Positions 20,865 through 28,997 of a stretch of DNA of 32,340 nt are shown in pieces. Within the stretch, counting starts at the first letter, position 1. Every line of letters begins with the position of its first letter. Below the pieces are notes generated by a model. It had not been told where the DNA came from. It searched no databases and saw only the letters and a list, made by a program, of their open reading frames with translations. This stretch comes from Acidobacteriota bacterium. Lineage in GTDB: Bacteria > Acidobacteriota > Terriglobia > 2-12-FULL-54-10. The translations under genes were made by a program, and so were the position numbers. The stretch covers positions 67,099 through 99,438 of the forward strand of contig SHUM01000003.1 of assembly GCA_009691245.1 (NCBI GenBank), in the 5' to 3' direction.

Positions 20865-21479
20865 ATGATTGGCTCCCCTAGCGAAATCGCAAACAAGAGA
20901 TTACCTGCCGCCATCCTGCTCGCAGTTATATCCTCGGCGAATCTATATTCGCAGGGGGCGGCGATCGCGCAACCCCCTGTGAATCCCAAGACGACGACTC
21001 GATTGACGCTGGGGAGTGCCTCTGGAATGCCCGGCTCCTCGGTTGTTGTCCCCATCTATTTCACGCCGGCCGAACAGGACGCCGTGGGACAGACAAGCCT
21101 GACTATCAGCTTTGTCAGCAAGAACCTGAAATTTTCCAAAGTCGATCTAGGGGCCGCCGCCGAGTTGAGTAATGTCGAGATCAAGACGGAAACCAAGGAT
21201 GGCAAAAACGATCAGGGCCTGGAGACCACGGCGCTGACCGTGCGCGCCGTGGTTCCCGGCGAGGCAGGCAAAGCGATACCATCTGGACTGCTCGGTTATC
21301 TCTCCTTTAACATTCTGGAGACAGCGGTTCCCGCGAACATCTCGCTGCGCGCGGAGGCTTCCGCTCAGTTAGCGGGAAGCAGCAAAGCGGCTGGCGACGT
21401 TCGCGCCTTCGGTGCTCAGGTAGAAGTACTCGCCGAGGGAGAAGGCGGCATGGTGGCGTGTTTCTTTTTTACACACTAA
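20865..21479 (+). CDS. secreted cohesin-like domain protein
   Basis: The first 36 residues include a signal peptide (LPAAILLAVISSANLYSQGAAIAQ). The rest is beta-rich and opens with TTRLTLGSASGMPGSSVVVPIYFTP, the usual first strands of a cohesin or carbohydrate-binding-module-2-like fold, followed by LTISFVSKNLKFSKVDLG and a strand ending GLLGYLSFNIL. It ends abruptly with a Gly-rich turn and aromatic tail (MVACFFFTH). An AAGGA ribosome site precedes the ATG. No dockerin or cellulosome gene is near, so it is probably a surface or periplasmic adhesion or assembly domain. It stands 89 bases before the efflux-related genes and could be their first gene or unrelated. Confidence 0.65.
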   Translation: MIGSPSEIANKRLPAAILLAVISSANLYSQGAAIAQPPVNPKTTTRLTLGSASGMPGSSVVVPIYFTPAEQDAVGQTSLTISFVSKNLKFSKVDLGAAAELSNVEIKTETKDGKNDQGLETTALTVRAVVPGEAGKAIPSGLLGYLSFNILETAVPANISLRAEASAQLAGSSKAAGDVRAFGAQVEVLAEGEGGMVACFFFTH

Positions 21480-21568
21480 CCGACGAAGTTTACGGGAATG
21501 GCTCGGAAATAAAATACTGGACTCATTGTGAAACATCGTTATTGTAGGACAATGATTGTGGCCATGGC

Positions 21569-25841: not shown

Positions 25842-28800
25842 ATGTTCAATCGCATAATACGCTTCTCCCTCGAACACCGCCTGTTGGTCATCTGCCTGAC
25901 CGTATTGTTGCTGAGCTACGGAGGCTACGTTGTCTGGCGCGAGCTGACCGTCGACATTTTCCCCGATTTGAACCGCCCTACCGTCACCGTCTTCACCGAA
26001 GCCGAAGGATTGGCGCCCGAGGAAGTGGAAGTGCAGGTGACGCTGCCGCTCGAGTACGCACTGAACGGCGCGACGGATGTCGAGCGCATACGGTCGCAGT
26101 CCGGCGTGGGCCTGTCGCTACTATTTGTCGAGTTTGATTGGGACTCGGACATTTATCGCGACCGCCAGATCGTCGCCGAAAAACTCGAGCTGGCTCGCGA
26201 CCGTCTGCCGCAGGGGTTGACGCCAGTGCTGGGGCCGATCAGCTCCATCATGGGCGAGATTCTTCTGGTCGCGCTGAAGAGTGATGACGGGAAAGTTTCG
26301 CCTCTTGAAATGCGCGAGGTGGCCGACTGGGTGATTCGCCCGCGTCTGCTTGCCGTGCCCGGCGTGTCGCAGGTAACGGTCATCGGCGGCGGAGTGAAGC
26401 AATATCAGGTGCTGGCGTCTCTCGACCGCATGCAGGAGTATGGCGTAACACTGCACGAGCTGGAAGCCGCCGTCGGTGCGTCCAACCAAAACACTTCCGG
26501 TGGATTCCTCACCGGACCGAATCGCGAGATTCTGATTCGCAACGTGGGCCGCACCAGCAGCCTCGAAGAAATTGGTCAGACCGTAGTTGCTTTCCGCAAC
26601 GATCAGCCGATCCACGTCTCCGATGTGGCCCACCTGCAATTCGGCCCGCCCGCTCCGCGCGGGTCAGCCGGATTCAATGGCGGACCCGCGGTAATCCTCA
26701 GCATTTACAAGCAGCCGAACGGCGACACCATCGCCCTCACGAAGGCGCTCGAAGCCGCCATCGAATCGTTGAAGCCCGCTCTGCCAGCCGGCGTTACGCT
26801 GGATACGAATGTTTTCCGCCAGGCCGATTTCATTCAGCGCGCCATCGATAACGTGAAGGATGGTTTGGTGGAAGGCGCCGTCTTCGTTACGATTGTCCTC
26901 TTTCTGTTTCTCTGGAATTTCCGCACCACCGTGATCAACGTCATGGCCATCCCTGCGTCGTTTCTGCTGACGTTTCTGGTGATGAAGGTGCTGGGCCTGG
27001 GCGTGAATACCATGACGCTCGGCGGCTTGGCCGTGGCCATCGGGTTGATCATTGACGACGCCATCGTGGACGTCGAAAACGTTTTCCGGCGCCTCCAGGA
27101 GAATCGCCGTCGTGAGCATTCCGCACCTGCGTTGCAGGTGATCTTCGACGCCTCGGCGGAGATTCGGAATTCGATCGTATACGCAACGTTCATCATCGCA
27201 TTGGTCTTCATTCCGCTGTTTTTCCTCTCTGGAGTGGAGGGCCGCTTGTTCGCGCCGCTGGGGATCGCATTCATCATTTCGTTACTCGCTTCGCTGCTGG
27301 TCTCACTCACACTGACGCCGGTGATGTGCTATTATCTGCTGCCCAAGGCTTCCTTTATGGATGAGGCTGAGGACTCCTTTTTGGTCCGCGGCCTGAAGTC
27401 TCTGCAGACGCGCATCCTGCGCTTCACGCTTCCTCATGCGTGGGAGATTCTGATCGCATCGGCCTTTCTGGTGCTGCTTTCCATCGCATTCATTCCCCTG
27501 CTGGGCCGTGAGTTCCTGCCTGATTTTAACGAAGGAACGCTTACCGTCAACGTGCAGGCCGAGCCGGGCGTGAGCCTGCCGGAGTCCGACGCCATCGGGC
27601 GACTGGCGGAAACGCGCATGTTGGCCGTCGAAGGCGTCAAATCGACGGGCCGTCGCACGGGCCGCGCCGAGCTGGACGACCATGCCGAGGGCGTCTATTA
27701 CACGGAGATAGAAGTAGCGCTCGACCCGGGCGAGCGGAAGATCGCGGAGATCGTCGCCGACATTCGCAGTCAGCTCTCCATTCTTCCCGGCATCGCTCTG
27801 AACATCGGCCAGCCCATCTCGCACCGCATCGACCACATGCAGAGCGGCGTGCGTTCGCAGATCGCCATCAAGATTTTTGGGGTGGAGCTGGCCGAGTTGC
27901 GGCGTATGGCCGATGAGATCGAAACAGTCATGAAGTCCGTGCCGGGCATGGTGGACGTGGCGGTGGAGAAGCAGTCGCTGGTGCCCGAGTTGCGCCTGAC
28001 CGTGAATCGCCAGCGCGCGGCTGAGTTCGGCTTGCAGGCTGGCGAGATCAACGATGTGCTGGAGACGGCGCTACAGGGCCGGACGGTCTCACAAGTGCTC
28101 GATGGACAGCGGACTTACGATGTGATTGTGCGGCTGGATGAGGTCTACCGCAACAACATTGAAGCGATCAGCGACGTGCTCCTCGACACTCCCTCGGGCG
28201 GCAAAGTTCCGCTGCGGCAGGTGGCCGATATTACACTATCGTCCAGCCCCAACCAGGTGTGGCGTGAGAATGCGCAGCGGCGCATCGTGGTGCAGGCCAA
28301 CGTCGCCGGTCGCGACCTGCGCGGCGCGGTTACCGAACTGCAAACTCGCATCAACAGTCAGGTGAAGCTGCCTACTGGTTACTGGATTGAATACGGCGGG
28401 CAGTTTGAGTTCGAGCAGCAGGCGACGCAGTTGATTCTGGCGATGTCGGGGGTAGCCATTCTGGGAGTGTTCCTGCTGCTGTACGCGCAATTTGGTTTTG
28501 TCCGCGTGGTGTTGCAGGTGATGGCGAATATTCCGCTGGCGCTGGTGGGCGCGGTGATCGCGGTCTATCTGTCGGGCGGAGTGCTTTCCGTTGCCTCGCT
28601 GGTGGGATTCATCACGGTGGGCGGCATCGCGGCGCGCAACGGCATCATGATGATCTCGCACTACATTCATCTGGTGCGCTACGAAGGCGAGCAGTTTGAC
28701 GAGAAGATGATCATTCGCGGCACGCTCGAACGGGTGCGGCCCGTGCTGATGACGGCGCTGGCGGCGATTCTGGGCGTGGCCCCGCTGGTCTTCGCCGGCG

Positions 28801-28997
28801 GAGAGGCGGGCAAGGAATTGCTGCAACCCATCGCGGTGGTCATCGCTGGCGGGCTGATCAGTTCCACGCTGCTCGATTGGACCGTCACGCCCGCGCTCTT
28901 CCTCAAATTCGGCCGGCCCGTGTGCGAATACTATCTCTCGGGCAAGGATCAATCGCAGAGGGCGCAGGACCGGATCACAGAAGAGCAAGCCAGTTAG
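25842..28997 (+). CDS. RND efflux permease, heavy-metal (CusA/CzcA) type
   Basis: This is a 1051-residue proton-driven inner-membrane pump. The N-terminus (FSLEHRLLVICLTVLLLSYGGY) and ELTVDIFPDLNRPTVTVFTEAEGLAPEEVE are typical of the HME branch, as are the two repeated sets of six helices with large periplasmic loops. Helix 4 reads AIGLIIDDAIVDVENV (Asp405, Asp406, Asp410, Glu412), giving the proton-relay acids, with Ala-Ile where CzcA has Asp-Phe. Later conserved stretches are GREFLPDFNEGTLTV, GQPISHRIDHMQSGVRSQIAIKIFG and GGIAARNGIMMISHYIH. The three Met residues that bind Cu(I)/Ag(I) in CusA do not seem conserved, so the substrate is open. It follows two adaptor genes after a 121-base gap. 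No good ribosome site is seen. Confidence 0.93.
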   Translation: MFNRIIRFSLEHRLLVICLTVLLLSYGGYVVWRELTVDIFPDLNRPTVTVFTEAEGLAPEEVEVQVTLPLEYALNGATDVERIRSQSGVGLSLLFVEFDWDSDIYRDRQIVAEKLELARDRLPQGLTPVLGPISSIMGEILLVALKSDDGKVSPLEMREVADWVIRPRLLAVPGVSQVTVIGGGVKQYQVLASLDRMQEYGVTLHELEAAVGASNQNTSGGFLTGPNREILIRNVGRTSSLEEIGQTVVAFRNDQPIHVSDVAHLQFGPPAPRGSAGFNGGPAVILSIYKQPNGDTIALTKALEAAIESLKPALPAGVTLDTNVFRQADFIQRAIDNVKDGLVEGAVFVTIVLFLFLWNFRTTVINVMAIPASFLLTFLVMKVLGLGVNTMTLGGLAVAIGLIIDDAIVDVENVFRRLQENRRREHSAPALQVIFDASAEIRNSIVYATFIIALVFIPLFFLSGVEGRLFAPLGIAFIISLLASLLVSLTLTPVMCYYLLPKASFMDEAEDSFLVRGLKSLQTRILRFTLPHAWEILIASAFLVLLSIAFIPLLGREFLPDFNEGTLTVNVQAEPGVSLPESDAIGRLAETRMLAVEGVKSTGRRTGRAELDDHAEGVYYTEIEVALDPGERKIAEIVADIRSQLSILPGIALNIGQPISHRIDHMQSGVRSQIAIKIFGVELAELRRMADEIETVMKSVPGMVDVAVEKQSLVPELRLTVNRQRAAEFGLQAGEINDVLETALQGRTVSQVLDGQRTYDVIVRLDEVYRNNIEAISDVLLDTPSGGKVPLRQVADITLSSSPNQVWRENAQRRIVVQANVAGRDLRGAVTELQTRINSQVKLPTGYWIEYGGQFEFEQQATQLILAMSGVAILGVFLLLYAQFGFVRVVLQVMANIPLALVGAVIAVYLSGGVLSVASLVGFITVGGIAARNGIMMISHYIHLVRYEGEQFDEKMIIRGTLERVRPVLMTALAAILGVAPLVFAGGEAGKELLQPIAVVIAGGLISSTLLDWTVTPALFLKFGRPVCEYYLSGKDQSQRAQDRITEEQAS

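Follow-up and report, generated by a model that had tools for sequence, protein, structure and literature searches.

A conserved locus for a probable heavy-metal RND exporter variant with a barrel-less TolC relative in Acidobacteriota

Three described exporters provide the closest comparisons for the locus presented here. CusCBA is a copper/silver exporter built around a resistance-nodulation-division (RND) pump. The RND-HME5 or 'class 6' system nieIC-cep-nieBA of Cupriavidus neocaledonicus comprises, in the available portion of its description, a single outer membrane efflux protein (OEP), a single adaptor and the pump NieA, which is a putative nickel exporter bearing the motifs HAEGVH and HRLDH, together with an exported protein encoded between the OEP and the adaptor (PMC7060636). 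TriABC from Pseudomonas aeruginosa has two periplasmic adaptor genes per RND pump (PMC8277102, in excerpt). The six-gene locus reported here lies at positions 20865-28997, on the + strand, of a 32,340-nucleotide stretch of DNA (the window) from an Acidobacteriota bacterium (GCA_009691245.1, contig SHUM01000003.1, 67,099 to 99,438); the window is located on contig C3 of the 3.43 Mb genome, hereafter G000. The genes encode, in order, a cohesin-like protein, a half-size relative of the OEPs (mini-OEP), a flavin mononucleotide (FMN)-binding-like protein, two HlyD-type adaptors (A and B) and an RND permease. The locus is a real and conserved variant of the metal RND exporters with one striking part, a TolC relative that is predicted to have no β-barrel.

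The permease gene (25842-28997) encodes a protein that matches the CusA/CzcA family TIGR00914 with 843 bits (cut-off 701.45) and ACR_tran with 909.5 bits, and aligns with CusA over the full length (E 2e-149). The CusA methionine triad, reported with E625 as M573-M623-M672 in the accessible text of PMC8092243, corresponds in this alignment to N570, Y620 and H665, while E625 corresponds to E622. Three histidines, H614, H661 and H665, do not vary across 13 aligned pumps and are also kept in the G598 genome. The window pump contains HAEGVY and HRIDH at the positions of the two NieA motifs, with the three invariant histidines retained and the last histidine of the first motif replaced by tyrosine; the patterns HAEGV[HY] and HR[IL][DE]H fit the motifs of NieA. 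These alignments indicate a CusA/CzcA-family RND pump in which a NieA-like triple-histidine site replaces the CusA methionines. The locus shares the RND family and adaptor type with CusCBA but has two adaptors and no full OEP in the cluster; this gene content, together with the replaced methionine triad, rules out a standard Cus or Czc exporter. An earlier, preliminary description of this DNA had listed the same six genes in this order, had classed the permease as a heavy-metal efflux type and had set the locus apart from standard Cus and Czc loci, all of which is borne out by the open reading frame (ORF) coordinates, the family matches and the comparison above. Its suggestion that the system is undescribed applies to the nonstandard gene combination but not to every part, as the pump resembles NieA and the YtkA-like module is known as a separate gene in Nie-type operons; the excerpt on nieIC-cep-nieBA (PMC7060636) names no FMN-like gene or cohesin. 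Plasmids of Hymenobacter and others carry orthologous pumps amid heavy-metal genes, and in other families of the window's class such pumps follow small histidine-rich proteins. In those families the gene ahead of the OEP at L086-L096, where the pumps are ordinary ones with a single adaptor, encodes a small exported histidine-rich protein, and several of these proteins end around HDPP...PRxPP. A further region of G000 (C85, 5543-8123; L108) holds a fragmented RND gene together with an OEP gene interrupted by an in-frame stop, and looks like a broken second efflux system.

The mini-OEP gene (21569-22321) encodes 250 residues that match no Pfam family at E<=1, PF02321 included. The AlphaFold model of the protein (from 7 sequences; pLDDT 75.4, pTM 0.65) consists of helices only, with no strand of at least three residues. 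When the model was compared with Protein Data Bank (PDB) chains the top 28 matches were all TolC-type channels (Z 11.7-16.7), the next being an unrelated chain at 6.9; the best match was VceC, with 201 residues aligned at a root mean square deviation (rmsd) of 3.7. Plain Foldseek gave no E-value below 0.001, the best (0.042) being to TolC. A profile of 13 full OEPs matched the protein (95.6%, E 1.3e-8), aligning residues 84-175 with OEP 144-235, the first hairpin pair, and approximately 181-230 with OEP 374-416, the second, while the OEP N-terminal part and the stretch between the hairpin pairs are absent. The assignment of helices to TolC hairpins is a reading of the structural and profile alignments. 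Because the profile aligns both hairpins while the stretches between are missing, the mini-OEP is modelled as a TolC relative that has kept both adaptor-facing hairpins and lost both barrel segments. It thus resembles TolC and other outer membrane factors in its two helical hairpins with adaptor-facing tips but differs in lacking the β-barrel and in being about half the length. The half-size OEP-like protein of the preliminary description is therefore supported by the model and the profile despite the lack of a Pfam match. Descent from a single-repeat TolC ancestor was rejected because the profile matches both repeats, with losses between them; the model, in addition, aligns along the whole TolC chain. 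Nothing relevant on barrel-less outer membrane factors was found in the open-access collection searched. A TolC relative of this kind, with adaptor-docking hairpins but no barrel, would offer a natural test of the contact between adaptor and outer membrane factor and of the idea that the periplasm can be the end point of an RND conduit.

All six genes are present in each of the seven genomes of the window's family (G000-G006), those hidden beneath longer antisense ORFs having been recovered by tblastn. Their order is intact in six, although two small genes (DUF2971 and DUF2442) are inserted ahead of the pump in G003 and the contig end falls within the pump gene in G001. In G002 the set is split in two, with the cohesin and mini-OEP genes behind a Bat-type operon on contig C18 and the FMN-like, adaptor and RND genes on C156. 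Because the gene set is conserved in 7/7 family genomes, the cluster is real and not a product of chance, and the prospect raised in the preliminary description, that homologues of the FMN-like and mini-OEP genes would never stand beside this pump elsewhere, did not materialize. The couplings and short gaps it had noted are evident for the FMN-like and adaptor genes, where A and B overlap by 4 bases and A follows the FMN-like gene after 18 bases; the remaining gaps are 58-121 bases. The ratio of non-synonymous to synonymous substitution (dN/dS) between G000 and G001 was 0.111 for the cohesin, 0.265 for the mini-OEP, 0.136 for the FMN-like protein, 0.191 for adaptor A, 0.122 for adaptor B and 0.069 for the part of the RND gene available, and thus all parts of the cluster are under purifying selection.

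A close pump (E<=1e-200) occurs in 72 of the 299 genomes of the window's class, seven of the 72 being the family. Eighteen pump loci outside the cluster were fetched and 17 gave results (all but L090, of G042), of which 13 consist of a full OEP, one adaptor and an RND gene (three of these are second pumps in family genomes); the FMN-like protein and mini-OEP had no match in any of the 17. Adaptor A (E<=1e-30) is found in 8 of 396 genomes of the phylum. The seven adaptor-A loci outside the family all have adaptor B as a neighbour, while five have a full OEP, three an FMN-like gene and three an RND gene. The FMN-like, A, B and RND genes are adjacent to each other at three of these loci, which belong to other classes; in two of the three a full OEP takes the place of the mini-OEP, and the third is cut by a contig end. 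The window's family has the barrel-less TolC relative at the position that a full OEP gene occupies in relatives from other classes, and the only outer membrane factor relative in the window cluster is this half-size, all-helical protein. Per genome, two candidates were scored in the pump search, eight in the cohesin search and five in the adaptor A search.

Two distinct adaptor genes lie beside the single RND gene, as in TriABC, whose listed substrate is triclosan; the excerpted text on that system (PMC8277102) mentions nothing FMN-like or mini-OEP-like. Adaptor A (22971-23852) is a HlyD-type protein (PF16576, 79.1 bits) that the RND_mfp model matches only up to position 244 of 322, and apparently lacks the membrane-proximal domain. 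It contains the motif HDxxH (HDQAH, 23265-23279, + strand), which is present, followed by RW, in 14/14 adaptor-A proteins and in 0/12 other adaptors. No adaptor-A match was found in plasmids at 1e-10, and an adaptor at L098 that belongs to a different pump likewise has its best match in adaptor A (30.7%). Adaptor B (23849-25720) begins with an exported module that starts AHGE, followed by two transmembrane-like stretches, as read from the sequence, and then a full HlyD adaptor (PF16576 and HlyD_3). The YtkA-adaptor fusion of the preliminary description holds in so far as an exported, possibly YtkA-like module precedes the adaptor; the YtkA family PF13115 (cut-off 25.9) has no match in the window protein, while a relative and a stand-alone protein score just below the cut-off, with 21.1 and 25.8 bits, respectively. 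In the window and in G598 the exported N-terminal module belongs to adaptor B, whereas G432 and G385 carry it on adaptor A; E-values of 1.5e-14, 2.7e-7 and 1.9e-11 against the window module (G598, G432 and G385, respectively) indicate that the domain has been swapped between the adaptors. A plasmid of Cupriavidus sp. EM10 encodes, between OEP and adaptor, a 186-residue protein with an AHG-type start and a transmembrane-like tail. BLAST did not match the adaptor B module to the Cupriavidus or Hymenobacter protein, and the FMN-like profile did not match the 186-residue protein (score -2.0). Because Cupriavidus has an AHG-type protein as a separate gene, the sequences can be read as showing, at the start of adaptor B, a module of a known kind that has become fused to the adaptor. 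In G493 a gene near an OEP and both adaptors (L124, 12624-14390) reads, from its sequence alone, like a CopC-CopD copper protein.

The FMN-like gene (22380-22952) encodes a secreted protein of 190 residues that matches FMN_bind (PF04205) with 24.9 bits (cut-off 22) and rnfG weakly, with 20.7 bits. At the default cut-off such matches occur in 13 of 151 relatives and are strong only in the seven family genomes (55-100% identity, E<=7e-55). Two of the weak-match loci in the other six genomes were scanned, and FMN_bind is beside ApbE in L038 and near one in L037; G003, of the family, has a second, distinct FMN_bind copy, which is beside ApbE (L033). The sole match in a genome-contig database is 93% identical and comes from a Candidatus Sulfopaludibacter sp. 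record. In the part of PMC12052999 available, the flavin attachment motif is given as D-x-x-[S/T]-G-A-[S/T], and replacement of the FMN-linking threonine with alanine abolishes flavinylation; FMN-binding domains without flavinylation bind flavin weakly (PMC8238504, in excerpt). The motif is missing in 9/9 orthologues of the FMN-like protein, the window sequence being DIRYSGAA (22857-22880, + strand), and the last-place serine or threonine is kept in only two, L118 (SGDS) and L120 (SGNT), and gone in 7/9. A search of the G000 genome found no ApbE; the protein is encoded in 3/7 family genomes and 4/7 of the other adaptor-A genomes. The alignments thus indicate loss of the flavin site from the FMN-like protein, which differs in this respect from ApbE-flavinylated proteins such as RnfG and NqrC, with which it shares the domain family. 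The redox-like accessory of the preliminary description is unsupported because the attachment motif is absent from every orthologue and ApbE from the window genome. An FMN-like relative encoded on a plasmid of Massilia putida (L221, 8917-9489) likewise lacks the flavin motif and has genes for an ArsR-type regulator and an ABC transporter as neighbours; it was set aside as a pump partner, as it is a single record with no RND gene in that stretch.

The cohesin gene (20865-21479) encodes a secreted protein of 204 residues with a single cohesin domain, which scores 22.6 bits against Pfam Cohesin, slightly under the cut-off of 24.1. All 50 PDB matches listed for its model (pLDDT 80.6) are cohesins (Z 10.2-16.8; best 16.8 over 140 residues, rmsd 2.2), and the predicted structure confirms the fold. 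While this fold is that of autonomous cohesins, the protein differs from them in a conserved C-terminal tail of the type CFF[FY][TM]H, in the window CFFFTH, encoded with the stop codon at 21459-21479 (+ strand). The cohesin profile is present in 10 of the 396 phylum genomes and is multicopy in nine of these. The same ten genomes contain repeated matches to CFF[FY][TMI]H followed by a stop: 13 each in G000 and G385, 11 in G417, 10 in G493, 9 each in G432 and G598, 7 in G507, 6 in G500, 5 in G425 and 2 in G577. G354 and G576 have a single match each, where no ORF of 60 residues ends in the pattern; the other 384 genomes have none, and a reversed-pattern control gave one match overall. In the 51 tagged ORFs the cysteine and histidine are fixed by the way these were selected; the unbiased count comes from a profile without the tail, with which 34/37 distinct cohesin ORFs still carry the tail-motif class. 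The three exceptions comprise a tail in another frame, a CFYYLH variant and an ORF cut by a contig end. At L138 (5661-6305) body and tail of the cohesin are in different frames, and the gene is broken or mis-assembled. The tagged cohesins of G000 end in CFFFTH and are located on the window contig and on C1, C8, C14, C18, C39, C41, C54 and C60; the variant in other classes is CFFYMH.

Eighteen of 20 loci around tagged cohesins (L137-L156) hold a member of one family, mostly 600-720 residues long, and the nine members scanned were all Amidohydro_3. A second neighbour family recurs at six of the 20 loci; its single scanned member is an outer membrane barrel (OMP_b-brl_4) that also has matches to TonB-type plug and barrel. 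Ten tagged cohesins gave nothing near cut-off against NCBIfam, and only Cohesin above cut-off was found for ten against Pfam (nine proteins were common to both sets). The open-access collection searched yielded no occurrence of CFFYMH or CFFFTH, and nothing relevant on acidobacterial cohesins with sorting signals or amidohydrolase. The tail is a clean, countable signal (2-13 per genome in 10/396 genomes), and the gene set described here is a first candidate linked to it.

The interpretation we favour, by a narrow margin over even odds, is that the locus is a variant of the tripartite heavy-metal RND exporters, with metal transport predicted. Driven by the proton gradient, the RND trimer would transport a divalent metal, which may be nickel, as guessed for the motif in the literature, or copper, cobalt or zinc. 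The two adaptors would form one shared ring, as in two-adaptor pumps such as TriABC, and metal may be bound at the entrance by adaptor A, through its HDxxH motif, and by adaptor B, through its exported AHGE module. The mini-OEP is proposed to dock its two hairpin tips on the adaptor ring, and the conduit would then either end in the periplasm or have another OEP on top. The FMN-like protein could be a structural or metal-sensing periplasmic subunit and not a redox carrier. Three observations weigh against this interpretation: the split in G002, where the mini-OEP is away from the pump and with the cohesin and the Bat operon; the lack of an adjacent RND gene at 4/7 adaptor-A loci of other classes (one of them on a contig of only 3.5 kb); and the co-occurrence, described below, of tagged cohesins with adaptor A, which plain metal export does not explain.

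Other explanations for individual parts of the locus were considered alongside metal export. Efflux coupled to redox by a flavinylated FMN protein, as first proposed, is extremely improbable; it has in its favour the above-cut-off PF04205 match and the ApbE genes encoded somewhere in several family and other adaptor-A genomes, but these are outweighed by the universal loss of the attachment motif and the lack of ApbE in G000. Almost as improbable is that the mini-OEP is a decaying, functionless OEP. Although its dN/dS is the highest among nine genes compared, the value is far below 1, the frame is open without stops in 7/7 family genomes and 30 columns are invariant among the 7 sequences. TolC-type channels are commonly shared between pumps, and this makes it conceivable, though unlikely, that the system is an ordinary exporter spanning the envelope, with a full-length OEP borrowed from elsewhere and the mini-OEP only a regulator or spacer. 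G000 indeed encodes further OEP-family genes, on contigs C72, C15 and C85, but none is beside this pump, and the mini-OEP, found in 7/7 family genomes, keeps exactly the adaptor-facing parts.

An explanation of the whole locus that we likewise regard as unlikely is that the two-adaptor machine serves the tagged cohesins by moving, anchoring or metal-loading them or their amidohydrolase partners, metal export being at most part of its role. All eight adaptor-A genomes fall within the ten genomes, among 396, that bear repeated tails, and a tagged cohesin gene adjoins that of the mini-OEP in 7/7 family genomes. In a YidC tree of 25 genomes (those with a match among 30 asked) the tagged genomes form two separate clades, one of which consists of the window's family, placed inside its own class, yet a tree of 28 pumps groups together the ten from two-adaptor clusters, with modest support (80/87). 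Because the adaptor-A genomes are all tagged and the two YidC clades share one pump group, joint transfer or joint retention of pump and tail seems to have occurred, over few events. The tail, moreover, contains cysteine, histidine and often methionine. Conversely, two separate lineages provide few independent events, no cohesin match lies beside the pump at the seven loci examined outside the family, and two tagged genomes, G500 (77% complete) and G577 (88%), have no adaptor-A match. To our knowledge no RND pump handles proteins, which also counts against this explanation. A more specific and slightly more doubtful form of it would make the tail a recognition signal on multicopy secreted cohesins, mostly encoded near an amidohydrolase of metal-dependent type, to which the two-adaptor RND machine would be dedicated; the pump would feed metal to the cohesins or sort them and, in the window's family, the barrel-less TolC would close the conduit toward the outer membrane, keeping cargo or metal in the envelope. 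The tagged cohesin may in the end be more important than the pump.

The genes flanking the cluster were also compared. ThiF and LipA genes downstream of the pump were rejected as partners; they follow it in G000, G003 and G002 but not in G004, G005 and G006, and they also flank an ordinary pump copy in G005. On the other side, a Bat/MoxR-VWA operon at 14635-20619 of the window lies next to the six genes, and a DUF58 gene or a fuller Bat-type set is present on the cohesin side in 6/7 family genomes, the contig of G006 stopping 1.9 kb off. A BatD/VWA pair is also found near adaptor A in G425 and G493, which belong to another class.

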